A stretch of DNA of 64,000 nucleotides from Burkholderiales bacterium (lineage in GTDB: Bacteria > Pseudomonadota > Gammaproteobacteria > Burkholderiales > Burkholderiaceae_C): NCBI GenBank assembly GCA_016192425.1, contig JACPUE010000066.1, positions 1-64,000 on the forward strand. The letters are read 5' to 3'. Both the position numbers and the translations under genes were made by a program. Positions 15,050 to 20,563 of this stretch are shown in pieces. Positions within the stretch are counted from its first letter, which is position 1; each line of letters opens with the position of its first letter. The notes under the pieces are model-generated. The model was not told the origin of the DNA, made no database searches, and saw only the letters and a list, made by a program, of their open reading frames with translations.

Positions 15050-15085
15050 CTTGATTTTCTCGGGGTGCGGCCCGATGTCTGGGGC

Positions 15086-15520
15086 ATGACCGAATCCCTG
15101 CACATCGTCTGTCCCCACTGCCACACCACCAACCGCGTCCAGGCGGCGCAGCTCGGCAGCCAGCCCGACTGCGGCAGTTGCCATCAGCCCCTGTTCACCG
15201 GGGCGCCGCTGGCGCTGGACGCCGCCAGCTTTGCCAAGCAGGTGCAGCGCAACCACATTCCGGTGCTGGTCGATTTCTGGGCGCCCTGGTGCGGCCCCTG
15301 CCGCCAGATGGCCCCTGCCTTTGCGCAGGCCGCGCGCACGCTGGAGCCCCGGGTGCGGCTGGCCAAGCTCGATACCGAGGCGCACCCCCAGGTGGCGGCG
15401 CCCTACAACATCCGCAGCATTCCGACCATGGTGCTATTCCAGGGCGGGCGCGAGGTGGCGCGCATCTCGGGCGCCCTGGGCGCGGCGGACATCGAGCGCT
15501 GGGTGCGCAGCGTGCTCTGA
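15086..15520 (+). CDS. trxC: Thioredoxin 2 (TrxC) with zinc-finger N-terminus
   Basis: 144 residues. An N-terminal zinc finger with CPHC (9-12) and CGSC (29-32) precedes a thioredoxin fold with the active site WCGPC (C69, C72) and the cis-Pro loop RSIPTM. This arrangement defines TrxC, an oxidative-stress disulfide reductase. I start at MTESLHIVCPHC (15086). It converges on the bufferin operon. Confidence 0.95.
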   Translation: MTESLHIVCPHCHTTNRVQAAQLGSQPDCGSCHQPLFTGAPLALDAASFAKQVQRNHIPVLVDFWAPWCGPCRQMAPAFAQAARTLEPRVRLAKLDTEAHPQVAAPYNIRSIPTMVLFQGGREVARISGALGAADIERWVRSVL

Positions 15521-15530
15521 ACCAAAGGCT

Positions 15531-16013
15531 TCAGCGCAGGCGCAGAACGTGGTCCAGTGAGGCCGCGCCCGCGCCGCGCCCGGCCAGGTAGAGCATCAGC
15601 GCCGCCCACGACAGGTGCGTGGGCCAGGCATCGGGGTAGACAAAGACCTGGATCACCAGCGTCATGCCCAGCAGCGCCAGGGCCGACAGGCGCGTGGCCA
15701 GTCCCAGCACCAGCAGCACCGGGAACAGGTGCTCGGCCACGGTGGCCATGGGCGCCGCCCATTCCGGGGGGATCAGCGGCAGCTTGTATTCCTCGCGGAA
15801 CAGCAGGTAGGTGGTGTCGGTGATCGTGAACCAGCCCTCGACCTTGGTGCGGCCCGACATCCAGAAGATGCCCGCCAGCGCCAGGCGCGCGGCCAGCGCG
15901 ATCAGGCCGTGCGGCGTGAGCTGCTCCAGCCGCTGGGCCAGGCCGTTCCACAGCCCGCGCACGCCGGGGCGGGGCGCGGGCGCAGAGCCGACAGGGGAAT
16001 GGGTGGTGTGCAT
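15531..16013 (-). CDS. DoxX-family membrane protein of the bufferin operon (BufD-like)
   Basis: 160 residues with four transmembrane helices. The [20 protein letters not shown] start and the [19 protein letters not shown] stretch are DoxX signatures. In bufferin gene clusters a DoxX-type protein is frequently the last gene and is thought to assist peptide handling or redox chemistry at the membrane. Start at ATG 16013, 15 bp after the preceding stop and with a strong GAGGAG ribosome site. Last gene of the leftward four-gene operon; converges with trxC. Confidence 0.88.
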
Positions 16014-16027
16014 GGGGTGCTCCTCGT

Positions 16028-16795
16028 TCAACAGGGTTCGGGGGGGCGCAGGGCGCCGGTGCGCAGCAGCAGCGCGACGAGTGCGGGCAGGTCGGCGGCG
16101 GGGTCGGCCTGCAGGGCCTGGGCGGCGGCGTCTTCAAAAGTGGCGCCCGCGGCGCAGGCGTCCAGCAGCGCGCAGCCCGCGTGCGGCAGGGGTGCCCAGT
16201 GCACGGCGTCGTGCGGGCGCGTCAGCAGCGCACCTTCGCCCTGCCAGGGCAGGTTGGCATCCCAGGGCAAGCCGTCGCGCTGGCATTGCCACAGGCGGTA
16301 GGCCGGGTGCTCCGCGCACCACTGCCAGCGCGCGGCCGGATGGGGCTGCAGGCGCAGCCGCGCCAGGGCCTCGGGCGGCTGCTGGGCCAGCCATGCGGCC
16401 TGCAGCGTGGGTGCGTCGGCGGCCAGGTGGGCCTCGGTCCAGCAGCGGTCCAGCCGCGCCACGGCGCCCAGGTAGGGCAGGTTGGCTGCGGGCGCGAAGT
16501 GGTCCAGAAATTCGGCAAAGCCCGCGCCGTAGCCCATCAGCCGTCCATCGGCAGGCGGGTGCTGGTGCATGAAGGCATGTGCTGCGGCGCGCAGCCAGTC
16601 GGTGCCCACCAGGGCGTGCACGGCGGGGTAGTTGGCCTGCAAGGCGTCGATACAGCCCTTGGCCACGGTGTTGCGGTACACGGCAAAGCCGGGCTGGGCG
16701 AGCAGCGCATCGAGCCAGGCGGGCGGCGGTGCGCTGGCGCCGGGCGCGGGCAGCAGGGCGCTGGCCAGGCCGTCCTGGAAATCGCTCAGGTGCAT
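16028..16795 (-). CDS. DUF2063 (BufC-type) partner of the DUF692 enzyme
   Basis: 255 residues. The N-terminal half ([20 protein letters not shown], then [18 protein letters not shown]) is the DUF2063 putative DNA-binding-like domain; the C-terminal half is a helical, Ala/Leu-rich domain. These proteins accompany DUF692 enzymes and are thought to bind the peptide substrate and bring it to the enzyme, not to bind DNA. Starts at ATG 16795, overlapping the end of the DUF692 gene by 10 bp, so translation is probably coupled. Confidence 0.9.
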
Positions 16796-17628
16796 GGCAG
16801 GGCCTCCAGGTTCGTGAGCATGCGGTGCGCGCGCTCGCGCTCGGCCAGCAGCTCGGGCAGGGGCGGAATGGCGTCGTCGCGCTCGATCAGCGTGGGCCGG
16901 GGGCCGGTGCGTGCGATCAGGCGTTCGTACAGCGCCCACACAGGCTCGGCCACGGGCGCGTCGTGGCTGTCGATGAGCAGCGCGTCGCCCAGGTGCGGGT
17001 CAGCATGGTGGCCCGCGAGGTGGATTTCGGTGATGGCCTGCACCGGAAAGGCGTCCAGGTAGTCGCTGGCGCGGGTGCCCAGGTTGTGCGCGCTGAGGTA
17101 CACGTTGTTCACGTCCAGCAGCAGGCCGCAGCCGGTGCGGCGCACCAGCGCGGCCAGGAAATCGGTCTCAGACCAGTCGTGCCCGTCGATGTGCAGGTAG
17201 TGCGTGGGATTCTCGATGGCGATGGCGCGGCCCAGGGCGTCCTGCGTGGCGCTGATGTTGGCCGCGATGCGCACCAGCGCCTCGTGCGTGCGCGGAAAGG
17301 GCAGCAGGTCGGGGTGGTAGCGCCCGCGCCAGGCCGACCAGGCCAGGTGCTCGGACACCAGCGCGGGTTCGATGCGCCGCGCCAGCTGCGCCAGGCGGTG
17401 CAGGTGGCCCGCATCGGGCGGCGCATCGGCCGCGAGCGAGAGCGACACGCCATGCAGCGACACCGGGTGGCGCGCGCGGATGGCTTCGAGCCAGGCCAGG
17501 CGCGGACCGCCGCCCGACAGGTAGTTCTCGGGGTGCACCTCCCACCACAGGCCGCTGGCGGTGCAGTGCAGGGCCTCGTCGTAGTGCTGGGGCTTGAGGC
17601 CCAGGCCTGCGGTGAGAAGGGGCTTCAT
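16786..17628 (-). CDS. DUF692 multinuclear non-heme iron oxidase (MNIO, BufB-type)
   Basis: 280 residues, a TIM-barrel MNIO. The metal-ligand pattern is visible in order: His59 (SLHGVSLSL), His94 (SEHLAW), Glu139 (IENPTHYL), Asp172 and Asn174-175 ([11 protein letters not shown]), His203 and His207 (EIHLAGH), Asp220 and His222 (LIDSHD), Glu249. MNIOs use two or three irons and O2 to modify cysteines in peptides; in bufferins Cys is converted to a thiooxazole-type copper-binding group. The substrate would be the DUF2282 peptide encoded 14 bp upstream. Start ATG 17628. Confidence 0.93.
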
Positions 17629-17642
17629 GGCGCGGCTTCCGG

Positions 17643-17942
17643 TCAGCTCTTCATGGCTTCCAGCGAACCCATGCCCTTGGGCGTCTGGATTCCGGTGCAG
17701 GTGCCCGCAGGCACGTACTTCCAGGCGTTGCCCTGGTAGTCCACCTTGGCGGTGCCCGCGCAGGTGGTGCCGGGGCCGGCGGCGCAGTCGTTCTTGCCGG
17801 CCATGGAAACGCCGTAGCACTTCTCCATGGCGGGCTTGGCCATGTCGCCGGGCTTGTTCATGCTGTCGGACTGCGCCAGTGCGGCGCCGCAGGAGAGGGC
17901 GGCGAAGGCCAGGGCGCCGAGGGTGAGGGTGCGGGAAGTCAT
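17643..17942 (-). CDS. DUF2282 bufferin precursor peptide (BufA1-like)
   Basis: 99 residues. A Sec signal peptide (about 1-24, ending GAALAQS) is followed by a mature part with exactly four cysteines: C42 (EKCYGV), C53 (KNDCAAG), C61 (GTTCAGT), C82 (AGTCTGI). The KCYGV...KNDCA...TCAGT...WKYVPAGTC pattern is the DUF2282 bufferin core. Members are post-translationally modified by the DUF692 enzyme and bind excess copper in the periplasm. First gene of the operon; about 75 bases of leader separate it from a SigF-type promoter at 18024-18049. Confidence 0.93.
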
Positions 17943-18023
17943 GGTGGTTGCTCCTTGGGTGGTGAAGAAAAGCGTCAGACCTCTGCCGGTGGTGTCTGCG
18001 CATCCGGCCGGTCTGCGCTGTAA

Positions 18024-18049
18024 TTCGCAGGCTTGGCGGGCCGGGTTAC
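18024..18049 (-). promoter_or_regulatory. SigF-type ECF promoter for the bufferin operon
   Basis: On the minus strand GTAACC (18049-18044), a 16-base spacer, then CGAA (18027-18024). This matches the promoter type described for Caulobacter SigF (GTAACC / CGAA). It points to the DUF2282 gene; transcription would begin near 18017. Confidence 0.75.
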
Positions 18050-18082
18050 GCTGTGGTCGAAAATATCTTTTTCGCCCCCCGT

Positions 18083-18108
18083 GTAACCAGCCGCGCACCG
18101 GCCCCGAA
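18083..18108 (+). promoter_or_regulatory. SigF-type ECF promoter for sigF-nrsF
   Basis: GTAACC (18083-18088), a 16-base spacer, CGAA (18105-18108): the same elements and spacing as the bufferin promoter but facing right. It lies 19 bp before the sigma-factor ATG and suggests autoregulation with a very short leader that still includes the GAGGGAG ribosome site. Confidence 0.72.
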
Positions 18109-18127
18109 TACCAGCGAGGGAGACGCC

Positions 18128-18670
18128 ATGGAGATAGAACAGCGGTTGCGCCCATTGCTGCTGCAGGGCCTGGAGGGCGACACCAATGCCTACCAGCGCT
18201 TTCTGAAGGAGCTGAGCGCGCACCTGCGGGCCTTTTTGCGCCGCCGCCTGGCCCAGCGGCCCGATGAAGTGGAGGACCTCGTGCAGGAAACCCTTTTGGC
18301 AGTGCACAACCAGCGCCACACCTACCGGCAAGACCTGCCGGTAACGGCCTGGGCGCACGCCATCGCGCGCTACAAGCTCATCGACTGGCTGCGCTCGCAC
18401 GCGGTGAAGGGCGCGCTCGACGTGCCGCTGGACGACGTGCAGGAGCTGTTTTCCAGCAGCGATGCCGAGGCCGCGCAGGCCCGGCGCGACCTGGGCCAGC
18501 TGCTGCAGACGCTGCCCGAGCGCCAGCGCCTGCCCATCGTGCACGTCAAGCTCGAAGGGCTGTCGGTGGCTGAAACGGCGCGCCTGACGGGGCTGTCGGA
18601 ATCGGCGGTCAAGGTGGGCGTGCACCGGGGGCTCAAGGCCCTGGCCGCCCGTATCAGGGGAACGACATGA
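18128..18670 (+). CDS. sigF: ECF sigma factor, SigF type
   Basis: 180 residues with sigma-70 region 2 (about 15-90, with [19 protein letters not shown] and [18 protein letters not shown]) and region 4 (about 120-175, a helix-turn-helix [20 protein letters not shown]). There is no signal peptide or extra domain. The next gene encodes an NrsF-type membrane anti-sigma factor and overlaps it by 4 bp. With the divergent bufferin operon this reproduces the SigF/NrsF/bufferin arrangement known from Caulobacter, where metal stress releases SigF. Start at [14 protein letters not shown] 18128. Confidence 0.9.
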
Positions 18671-19308
18671 AAACGGATGACTTGATTGCACTGCTTGCCA
18701 ATGACCCCGGCCCGGTGCCGCGCAACGCCATCGAGCAACGCTTTGCACTGGCCTTGCTCGCCGGGCTGGCGTGCGCCCTGGTGCTGATGTTGGCGCTGTT
18801 CGGGCTGAACCCCCGCCTGCTGCAGGACATGGCGCTGCCCGTGTTCTGGGGCAAGCTGGTGTTTGCCGCCCTGCTGGCCGCGGGCTGCCTGGCCGTGCTG
18901 CGCCGCCTGGCGCGGCCCGGCATGGGCCTGGGGCACAGTCTGGCGCTGCTGGCGCTGCCGCCGCTGGTGCTGTGGGGCCTGGCCGCCGTGGCGCTGGGCC
19001 AGGCCAACCCCGGCGAACGCCTGCCCCTGGTGCTGGGCAGCACCTGGCGCAGCTGTGCCTTCAACATTGCGGCGCTGTCGGTGCCTGCCCTGGCGGCCAG
19101 CCTGTGGGCGCTGCGCGGCGCGGCGCCCACGCGGCTGGCCTGGGCGGGCGCCGGGGCCGGGCTGCTGGCGGGCGCCCTGGGCGCGCTGGCCTATGCGCTG
19201 CACTGCCCGGAAATGGCCGCGCCCTTCCTGGCCGTGTGGTACCTGGCGGGCATGGCCTTGCCCACGCTGGCGGGCGCCTGGCTGGGGCCGCGCGTGCTGC
19301 GCTGGTAG
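18667..19308 (+). CDS. nrsF: NrsF-type (DUF1109) membrane anti-sigma factor
   Basis: 213 residues with six predicted transmembrane helices in the DUF1109/NrsF pattern. The cytoplasmic N-terminus [20 protein letters not shown] is the likely sigma-holding segment. Cysteines fall at the membrane (LACAL, AAGCLA, WRSCAFN, ALHCPEM), consistent with thiol-based sensing of metal or oxidative stress reported for NrsF. Overlaps sigF by 4 bp. Confidence 0.88.
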
Positions 19309-19315
19309 CTGGTTG

Positions 19316-20563
19316 TCAGGTGGCGGGCTGGGCCAGCCAGGCGGCCACGGCCTCCGCGCGTGCGGCGTGGATCAGTTCACCTACTTTTTGGCCTGTAATG
19401 CCCTTGGATGCTGCGTTGGCAGCTATCACATTGGTAGCAACTGATTGCACTGCGGCCAGCGCCCCGCCCAGGCGTGCGCGCTGCGGGTAGGCCGCTTCCT
19501 CGAAGTGCAGGCGCCCTCTGGCGTCGCATTCGCAGGCCAGCAGGATGTCGCCCATGCGCGTGGGTTTGCGGATGGCGTCGCAGCGCTCCAGCAGCCGCAC
19601 CAGCGCGGCGGCGTCCAGGCTGCCGCTGCGGTGGATGTTGCTGTGCTCACGCGCCACCACGTCGGCCAGCTCGCGGCAGTCGGTGGGCACGCGCAGGCGT
19701 TCGCACAGGCCCTTGAGCAGGTCTGTGCTGCGCTGCTCGTGGCCGATGTGGCGCGGCAGCACGTCGGCAGGCGTGGTGCCCTTGCCCAGGTCGTGCGCCA
19801 GGCAGGCGAAGCGCACGGCCAGCGGCGCCTGCAGGCGTGCAGCCATGTCCAGCACCATCATCAGGTGCACGCCGGTGTCCACCTCGGGGTGGTAGTCGGC
19901 GCGCTGGGGTACGCCCCACAGGCGGTCCACCTCGGGTAGCACCACCTTGAGCGCGCCGCACTGGCGCAGCACCTCGAACATGCGCGAGGGCTTTTCCTCC
20001 ATGAGGCCGCGCGCCAGCTCCTGCCACACGCGCTCGGCCACCAGGTGGTCGGCCTCGCCGTGCTTCACCATGGAGCGCATCAGCGCCATCGTCTCGGGCG
20101 CCACCGAAAAGTCGGTGAAGCGCGCCGCAAAGCGCGCCACGCGCAGGATACGCACCGGGTCGTCATGGAAGGCGTGGGTCACGTGGCGCAGCACCTTGTC
20201 GCGCAGGTCGCGCGCGCCGCCATGGGGGTCAAAAATGGCCTCTGCGCCCGTGGGATCTGCGCCAATAGCTATCGAATTGATAGTAATGTCGCGCCGCGAG
20301 AGGTCCTCTTCCAGCGTTACCTCGGGCGAGGTCTGCACCACAAAGCCGCGGTAGCCGCGCCCGCTCTTGCGCTCGGTGCGCGCCAGCGCGTACTCCTCGC
20401 GTGTCTGCGGGTGCAGGAAGACCGGAAAGTCGCGCCCCACGGGCAGGTAGCCCTGGGCCACCATCTGCTCGGGCGTGGCGCCCACCACCACCCAGTCGTG
20501 GTCGTTCACGGGGCGGCCCAGCAGCCGGTCGCGCACGGCGCCCCCCACCATGTAGATTTGCAT
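19316..20563 (-). CDS. cca: Multifunctional CCA-adding enzyme
   Basis: 415 residues. It adds and repairs the CCA end of tRNA. A class II nucleotidyltransferase head has GGAVRD (7-12) and the catalytic pair DHD (21-23), then RRDITIN and the RxxRF helix (RILRVARFAARF). A C-terminal HD phosphohydrolase domain (CLAHDLGKG) gives the multifunctional form of beta/gammaproteobacteria. Start at MQIYMVGG (20563). Two miniature repeats fall inside it (19381-19441 and 20230-20287), the second coding for INSIAIGADPTGAEAIFDP next to a conserved motif. Confidence 0.95.
   Translation of the reverse strand: MQIYMVGGAVRDRLLGRPVNDHDWVVVGATPEQMVAQGYLPVGRDFPVFLHPQTREEYALARTERKSGRGYRGFVVQTSPEVTLEEDLSRRDITINSIAIGADPTGAEAIFDPHGGARDLRDKVLRHVTHAFHDDPVRILRVARFAARFTDFSVAPETMALMRSMVKHGEADHLVAERVWQELARGLMEEKPSRMFEVLRQCGALKVVLPEVDRLWGVPQRADYHPEVDTGVHLMMVLDMAARLQAPLAVRFACLAHDLGKGTTPADVLPRHIGHEQRSTDLLKGLCERLRVPTDCRELADVVAREHSNIHRSGSLDAAALVRLLERCDAIRKPTRMGDILLACECDARGRLHFEEAAYPQRARLGGALAAVQSVATNVIAANAASKGITGQKVGELIHAARAEAVAAWLAQPAT
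19381..19441 (-). repeat. Miniature AT-rich palindromic repeat, intragenic copy c
   Basis: Near the 3' end of cca, gene orientation: GTGATAGCTGCCAACGC, loop, ATTACAGGCCAAAAAG. Aligns with copies a and h. Confidence 0.65.
20230..20287 (-). repeat. Miniature AT-rich palindromic repeat, intragenic copy d
   Basis: Within the head domain of cca, gene orientation: ACTATCAATTCGATAGCTAT, TGGCGC, loop, GCGCAGAGGCCATTTTTGA. One of the clearer copies. Confidence 0.75.

Follow-up and report, generated by a model that had tools for sequence, protein, structure and literature searches.

In Caulobacter crescentus, the sigma factor sigma-F controls two operons encoding DUF2282, DUF692 and DUF2063 proteins as well as the gene of YedY/MsrP, each preceded by a site of the form GTAACC-N16-CGAA (PMC3511200), and YedY/MsrP figures as a sigma-F target in PMC8224329 as well. 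In these reports, the inducers are chromate, cadmium and copper, and not peroxides (PMC3511200, PMC8224329): SigF is released from its anti-sigma factor NrsF under dichromate (PMC3511200), the regulon is induced by copper in both media tested, and a sigF::Tn5 strain is copper sensitive (PMC8224329). In Cupriavidus metallidurans, the gig operon is induced by copper and gold (PMC10304878) and is stated to be controlled by the sigma factor RpoQ (PMC7563307), while in Sinorhizobium meliloti overexpression of RpoE7 raises both units of a comparable divergent pair (PMC6180224). Regarding the products, Buf1 bufferins bear thiooxazoles and chelate copper (PMC12452194), and the chemistry of related products is described in PMC13097082. 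Here, we report the analysis of a 64,000-nucleotide stretch of a Burkholderiales bacterium genome (the window; assembly GCA_016192425.1, contig JACPUE010000066.1, positions 1 to 64,000 of the forward strand), in which positions 15531-19308 very probably hold a Buf1 bufferin (captophorin) cluster placed under its own SigF/NrsF regulator and directed at periplasmic thiophilic-metal stress, with sigma-F-type sites at the buf operon, at sigF and at msrP.

The locus is made of two divergent units with six intact open genes, as judged from the open reading frames and Pfam. From the intergenic region (17943-18127, 185 bases) outward, bufA, bufB, bufC and doxX follow one another on the minus strand and sigF and nrsF on the plus strand; the start of bufC overlaps the end of bufB, sigF and nrsF overlap at 18667-18670, and the Pfam scores of all six genes are well over cut-off. 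This layout bears out a first-pass annotation of the window, which had placed DUF2282, DUF692, DUF2063 and DoxX genes in one operon divergent from an extracytoplasmic function (ECF) sigma factor and its anti-sigma factor. By sequence, the bufA-bufB-bufC order with a BufB-type multinuclear non-haem iron oxidative enzyme (MNIO) marks a putative Buf1 cluster, and the succession of an ECF sigma gene and an NrsF-family (formerly DUF1109) anti-sigma gene a predicted SigF/NrsF pair. The genome (3.67 Mb in 68 contigs, 99.99% complete) contains a single match each to MNIO, DUF2282 and NrsF. Among the closest loci are those of two Burkholderiales metagenome-assembled genomes (L074 and L121, 84-96% protein identity) and of Acidovorax species (L099, L103, L105 and L131), so that the host probably belongs near Acidovorax within the Comamonadaceae; against three relatives (L074, L121 and L099), the pairwise ratio of nonsynonymous to synonymous substitution (dN/dS) of the six genes is 0.13-0.48.

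The 64 kb of the window contain only two exact copies of GTAACC-N16-CGAA, and both lie in the buf-sigF gap, facing outward, one toward each unit; two copies with one mismatch are found elsewhere in the window. These two sites, absent from the account given in the first-pass annotation, appear by sequence and position to be promoter-like sigma-F sites at sigF and at its target. A simple scan of 15300-19700 for sigma-70 promoters and terminators returned nothing above shuffles. Of the 150 family genomes covered, 26 have NrsF, 88 have DUF2282 and 20 have both. In the best 30 of the 88 matching genomes' loci, a site (spacing 15-17, at most 450 nucleotides upstream of the domain match) precedes the DUF2282 gene in 10 of 11 NrsF genomes and in none of the 19 examined from the 68 that have DUF2282 and no NrsF match (Fisher 3.7e-7, a value that, like the Fisher value given below for msrP, overstates confidence because relatives are not independent, which counts against our interpretation). 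On the other side of the gap, 18 of the 26 family NrsF loci were found by script to have an exact copy directed at sigF, and L034 is to be added to these. Moreover, three of 12 further NrsF genomes (G085, G142 and G105) have only three exact copies genome-wide, at buf, sigF and msrP.

The divergent site pair, with its 20 fixed bases, was also scanned at the DNA level against a one-genome-per-species collection, which yielded at least 118 stretches. Among the 118 listed, tblastn at E 1e-3 located sigF in 110, nrsF in 103, bufA in 73 and an oxidoreductase resembling MsrP in 20; three stretches matched none of the seven queries.

The msrP gene lies elsewhere in the genome, with an exact sigma-F site 59 nucleotides upstream; it was identified by the NCBIfam MsrP model (475.3 bits for a cut-off of 207), and the membrane-protein frame that follows it is taken for MsrQ. 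Within the family, full-length msrP is preceded by an exact site in 9 of 22 NrsF genomes vs 0 of 26 NrsF-free ones (Fisher 3.0e-4), counts that leave out four of the 26 NrsF genomes, without a full-length msrP match, and cover 26 of the 124 NrsF-free genomes; with at most one mismatch, 11 of the 22 NrsF genomes have it. As separate observations on NrsF loci, a cytochrome b561-like gene faces sigF in L014 (2836-3444, plus) and L019 (130-747, minus), with exact sites both ways, in two NrsF genomes that have no DUF2282 match and whose MsrP-like match lies just past the cytochrome gene; behind an exact site, sigF is faced by a thioredoxin-like gene in L032 (356-757, minus) and by a DoxX gene in L023 (279-764, minus).

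Table 1. Genes and sigma-F-type sites of the bufferin locus (coordinates of the window) and BufA2-like loci found elsewhere (coordinates of the locus named).
Feature	Coordinates	Strand	Evidence
bufA, Buf1 bufferin precursor (DUF2282), 99 residues	17643-17942	-	Pfam PF10048, E 8.4e-26
bufB, MNIO (DUF692), 280 residues	16786-17628	-	PF05114 MbnB_TglH_ChrH, E 4.6e-97
bufC, MNIO partner, DUF2063 and C-terminal domain, 255 residues	16028-16795	-	PF09836, E 1.6e-20
doxX, DoxX-family membrane protein, 160 residues	15531-16013	-	PF07681, E 9e-20
sigF-like ECF sigma factor, 180 residues	18128-18670	+	Pfam Sigma70_r2 and r4_2
nrsF, predicted membrane anti-sigma factor, 213 residues	18667-19308	+	PF06532 NrsF, E 7.6e-70, 235.3 bits
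Sigma-F-type site GTAACC-N16-CGAA toward bufA	18024-18049	-	exact match; 81 nucleotides from site end to ATG
Sigma-F-type site GTAACC-N16-CGAA toward sigF	18083-18108	+	exact match; 19 nucleotides from site end to ATG
BufA2-like gene of L024	110-403	-	own exact sigma-F site
Other BufA2-like loci: L069, L073, L078, L079, L092, L102, L109, L114, L120			
Further BufA2-like loci: L123, L132, L134, L168, L169, L171, L185			

Regarding the precursor, the DUF2282 domain and four conserved cysteines of BufA (C42, C53, C61 and C82) are those expected of a candidate Buf1 precursor, and by homology the peptide is predicted to be post-translationally modified and to bind copper. With queries spanning 17649-17942, that is, minus the final codon (Ser), these positions are Cys in 73, 72, 72 and 71, respectively, of the 73 listed pattern loci with a BufA match, the remainder being unaligned; all four are Cys in 13 of 13 family loci and invariant in an alignment of 39 rows. 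The N-terminus is hydrophobic and, on inspection and alignment, presumably a signal peptide ending around ALAQ. It contains a fifth cysteine, C18 (codon 17889-17891, minus), mostly Ser or Ala in relatives, so that the four-cysteine peptide of the first-pass annotation is correct for the mature part and one short for the precursor. The precursor matched no NCBIfam family.

BufB exceeds the cut-off of the NCBIfam MNIO_BufB equivalog (361.9 bits vs 310). In the 66 listed pattern loci with a match, H59, H94, E139, D172, N174, N175, H203, D220, H222, E249 and D251 show zero substitutions (1-8 rows being unaligned at each position except H59), E93 is variable (D in 15 and G in one) and H207 is replaced by F or Y or falls in a gap in four loci. 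The motifs DVNN (N174 and N175) and DSH (D220 and H222) are thus preserved, and the remaining conserved residues are presumably iron ligands, an assignment that we base on motifs; the alignment of loci in this way upholds the ligand motifs noted in the first-pass annotation. In HvfB, N175, D242 and H244 are required for activity (PMC13419390), and we take DVNN (N174 or N175) and DSH (D220 and H222) of BufB as their probable counterparts, the correspondence being drawn through an alignment with 3bww, a close relative of HvfB, and without HvfB itself. For BufC, a sequence search against solved structures gave nothing at E up to 1, and the protein was hence compared by its predicted fold. The AlphaFold2 model (pLDDT 95.7) has three Foldseek matches at E <= 0.001, namely TglI (8hci and 8hi7) and NGO1945 (3dee), with E from 1.5e-6 to 4.8e-5 over 231-286 alignment columns; on this predicted fold, BufC would be a PME type 1 partner (DUF2063 and an RRE-type domain, about 250-260 residues). 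The HvfC equivalog model (DUF2063 type) matched bufC below its cut-off and doxX scored 46.1 bits against the HvfX model (DoxX type), under the cut-off of 80. Since the NCBIfam equivalogs stay below cut-off for bufC, doxX and nrsF, these names rest on Pfam and gene context and, for bufC, also on the predicted fold. An alternative TTG start of doxX at 16031 is possible, and a thioredoxin 2 gene (TrxC, zinc-ribbon type; 15065-15520, plus) runs convergent with doxX and ends 10 bases from its end.

The sigma factor belongs to the NCBIfam PRK12536 subfamily (308.8 for a cut-off of 250); for homologues, the literature uses the group name ECF16. NrsF scores 135.6 bits against the equivalog AntiSigF_NrsF, under its cut-off of 300; as this goes against the strict equivalog name, we do not claim it, and the likeness is drawn from the other features. 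Among these, C130 and C180 are taken from the alignment as the likely counterparts of Caulobacter C131 and C181, for which a periplasmic position has been described (PMC3511200). C130 is Cys in 98 of the 103 listed pattern loci with nrsF (three unaligned, one Leu, one His), C180 in 94 of the 103 (nine unaligned), and both are Cys in 26 of 26 family loci.

From the observed six-gene arrangement, conserved residues, predicted BufC fold, and sites with their conservation, a mechanism can be proposed in which the activity of the promoters, the signal that induces them, and the modification, export and copper binding of the peptide are inferred by analogy with Caulobacter and other homologues. Thiophilic metals or oxidants would meet the two conserved cysteines of NrsF in the periplasm, and SigF would be let go. 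SigF would then transcribe bufABC-doxX in one direction and sigF-nrsF in the other from the two GTAACC-N16-CGAA promoters, as well as msrP elsewhere in the genome. BufB together with BufC would oxidise the inner cysteine pair of BufA to thiooxazoles, while the outer pair would probably form a disulphide; the peptide would be exported by Sec and bind copper in the periplasm, with DoxX assisting and MsrP repairing oxidised methionines. In nature, the inducer may be thiol stress in the periplasm and not just copper.

Indeed, an account in which the switch senses periplasmic oxidative thiol or chlorine stress and not copper, the bufferin and MsrP being two arms of a general envelope response, is a real if lesser possibility. 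The exact site 59 nucleotides before msrP points in this direction, as do the MsrP-like oxidoreductases in 20 of the 118 listed pattern stretches, a Brucella system of the SigF/NrsF kind whose inducer is hypochlorite and whose target is an msrPQ-type operon (PMC8315932), the statement in the same source that A. suillum SigF answers chlorine species and C. crescentus SigF reactive oxygen, and the defect under oxidative stress in stationary phase that PMC8224329 cites for a Caulobacter sigF mutant. Metals are favoured by the copper induction of the Caulobacter regulon in both media and by the response of two C. crescentus regulon genes, which rose at most twofold with H2O2, tert-butyl hydroperoxide (tBOOH), paraquat or diamide, while CC3255 was raised by chromium and cadmium (PMC3511200). 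The first-pass annotation had spoken of a metal-stress switch: the SigF/NrsF pairing stands, and the word metal may be too restrictive, since msrP has this site in front of it as well and related sigma factors of other bacteria answer hypochlorite (PMC8315932). It is far less probable that the control exerted by SigF is limited to its own unit and msrP, with the bufferin operon as a neighbour under another regulator. Such an arrangement would agree with the raised gig expression in the C. metallidurans rpoQ deletion under metals, for which the authors suspect compensation while still assuming RpoQ control, and with the lack of a mapped gig promoter in the same account (PMC10304878); it is opposed by the exact sites facing bufA here and gigP in C. 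metallidurans CH34 (L187), by the contrast between NrsF and NrsF-free genomes among the best 30 DUF2282 loci, and by the simple scan, in which 15300-19700 showed no sigma-70-like promoter. A decaying cluster, or a BufA peptide used unmodified, is the least probable of all: the extra cysteine in the presumed signal peptide might be read in that sense, and on the other side all genes are open, the examined residues and mature cysteines are preserved, and the dN/dS values are those given above.

Several points nevertheless weigh against a Buf1 cluster driven by SigF/NrsF. In the family, one NrsF genome (L041) has a DUF2282 gene without the site, seven of the 26 NrsF loci are without the exact site toward sigF, and one of the 26 NrsF-free genomes has a site at msrP when a mismatch is allowed; 13 of the 22 NrsF genomes are without an exact site there, so that the msrP arm is not universal. 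In Caulobacter, autoregulation of sigF is not strong, and sigF and the two MNIO genes tested are dispensable for chromium or cadmium resistance (PMC3511200); in S. meliloti, reporters of the divergon were not induced by H2O2, cadmium or chromate (PMC6180224). For C. metallidurans, RpoQ control of gig is assumed but not demonstrated in PMC10304878 and PMC11022561, both later than PMC7563307, accounts in which no gig promoter is mapped, the mapped rpoQ-rsqA start is assigned to RpoD, and deletion of rpoQ raised gig expression (which their authors attribute to compensation). Genome-wide, exact copies of the site number 8 vs 4 for the reversed control in the genome of the window and 45 vs 60 in 12 relatives. 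As copies are not clearly commoner than the reversed control, counting them was dropped as evidence, and only the position of a site is informative: a tally by eye over 13 NrsF genomes places 31 of their 53 exact copies at sigF, bufA or msrP. Six exact copies of the genome lie outside the window, one being that at msrP; L003 and L006, inside longer reading frames, and L002, L004 and L007, without a recognised gene start nearby, are not read as targets.

Beyond Buf1, BufA2-like genes carry the same site. PMC12452194 reports sigma and NrsF genes in Buf1 clusters and none in Buf2 clusters. Among 145 scanned loci, 17 have a best tblastn match at least 40% identical to the BufA2-like protein of L024 (weaker matches being left out as DUF2282-type precursors), and all 17 have an exact sigma-F site 34-122 nucleotides ahead of the ATG, which in 12 loci is separate from the pattern pair used for selection. 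The NCBIfam BufA2 cut-off is exceeded by each of the ten proteins, out of the 17, that were compared with the model, and sigF or nrsF is present in 16 of the 17 stretches. On balance, it seems somewhat more probable than not that GTAACC-N16-CGAA ties Buf1 and Buf2 bufferins and a periplasmic methionine-sulphoxide reductase together under SigF/NrsF, in beta- and alphaproteobacteria and at least one gammaproteobacterium, as a joint envelope response that binds the metal and repairs the damage. If this is true, the gig operon of C. metallidurans would be under RpoQ, and Buf2 clusters would stand both beside SigF and under it. As a side observation, a 578-residue frame fusing MNIO and DUF2063 lies downstream of bufA2 and divergent from sigF-nrsF in genome G027 (L278, 3125-4861, minus) and resembles a natural counterpart of the HvfBCfusion protein used in PMC13419390.

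Compared with known systems, the locus agrees in gene order with CC3254-CC3257 of Caulobacter crescentus/vibrioides, with the succession DUF2282-DUF692-DUF2063-DoxX and adjoining sigF-nrsF, and has in common with it GTAACC-N16-CGAA at both units, the two NrsF cysteines and a YedY/MsrP gene with its site (PMC3511200); family models, gene order and the exact site facing each unit all agree with the Caulobacter-like arrangement proposed at first. The difference lies in the second sigma-F-controlled operon of Caulobacter, CC2907-CC2905, as the present genome has one MNIO gene and one DUF2282 gene. Regarding the betaproteobacteria, the occurrence of a bufferin set announced by the first-pass annotation is real without being the first, since gigPABT-rpoQ-rsqA of C. 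metallidurans CH34 has the same six genes in the same orientation, although on a chromid and with an NrsF 47.4% identical to that of the window. Between gigP and rpoQ, the CH34 chromid record has an exact site in each direction (L187, 2844-2869 on the minus strand; 2904-2929 on the plus strand), which bears on the published uncertainty and, at the level of sequence, favours RpoQ control at both units; the passages on gig consulted do not mention such a site, and we make no claim that these sites were previously unreported. The rpoE7-ecfR7 / SMb20530-SMb20527 region of S. meliloti likewise sets a sigma/anti-sigma pair divergent from a DUF692/DUF2063 operon with a related promoter, but is alphaproteobacterial with promoters printed as GTAACA (PMC6180224), and Brucella bcrS-abcS with bcrXQP shares an NrsF-family anti-sigma factor with two conserved cysteines and an msrPQ-type target, but its reported inducer is hypochlorous acid (PMC8315932).

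The cluster itself is hence not a new type, as PMC12452194 already reports sigma and NrsF genes in Buf1 clusters; the Caulobacter and gig arrangements are known, and for Caulobacter a second operon has already been published as controlled by sigma-F. To these systems, the present comparison makes modest additions, namely the exact site pair tied to NrsF in the family, the msrP site, the gig sites and the Buf2 sites. Being exact and conserved, the sites make a sigma-F drive of betaproteobacterial bufferin production readily checkable, and the pair offers a DNA-only handle for locating bufferin, Buf2 and msrP units driven by sigma-F in genomes that lack annotation.

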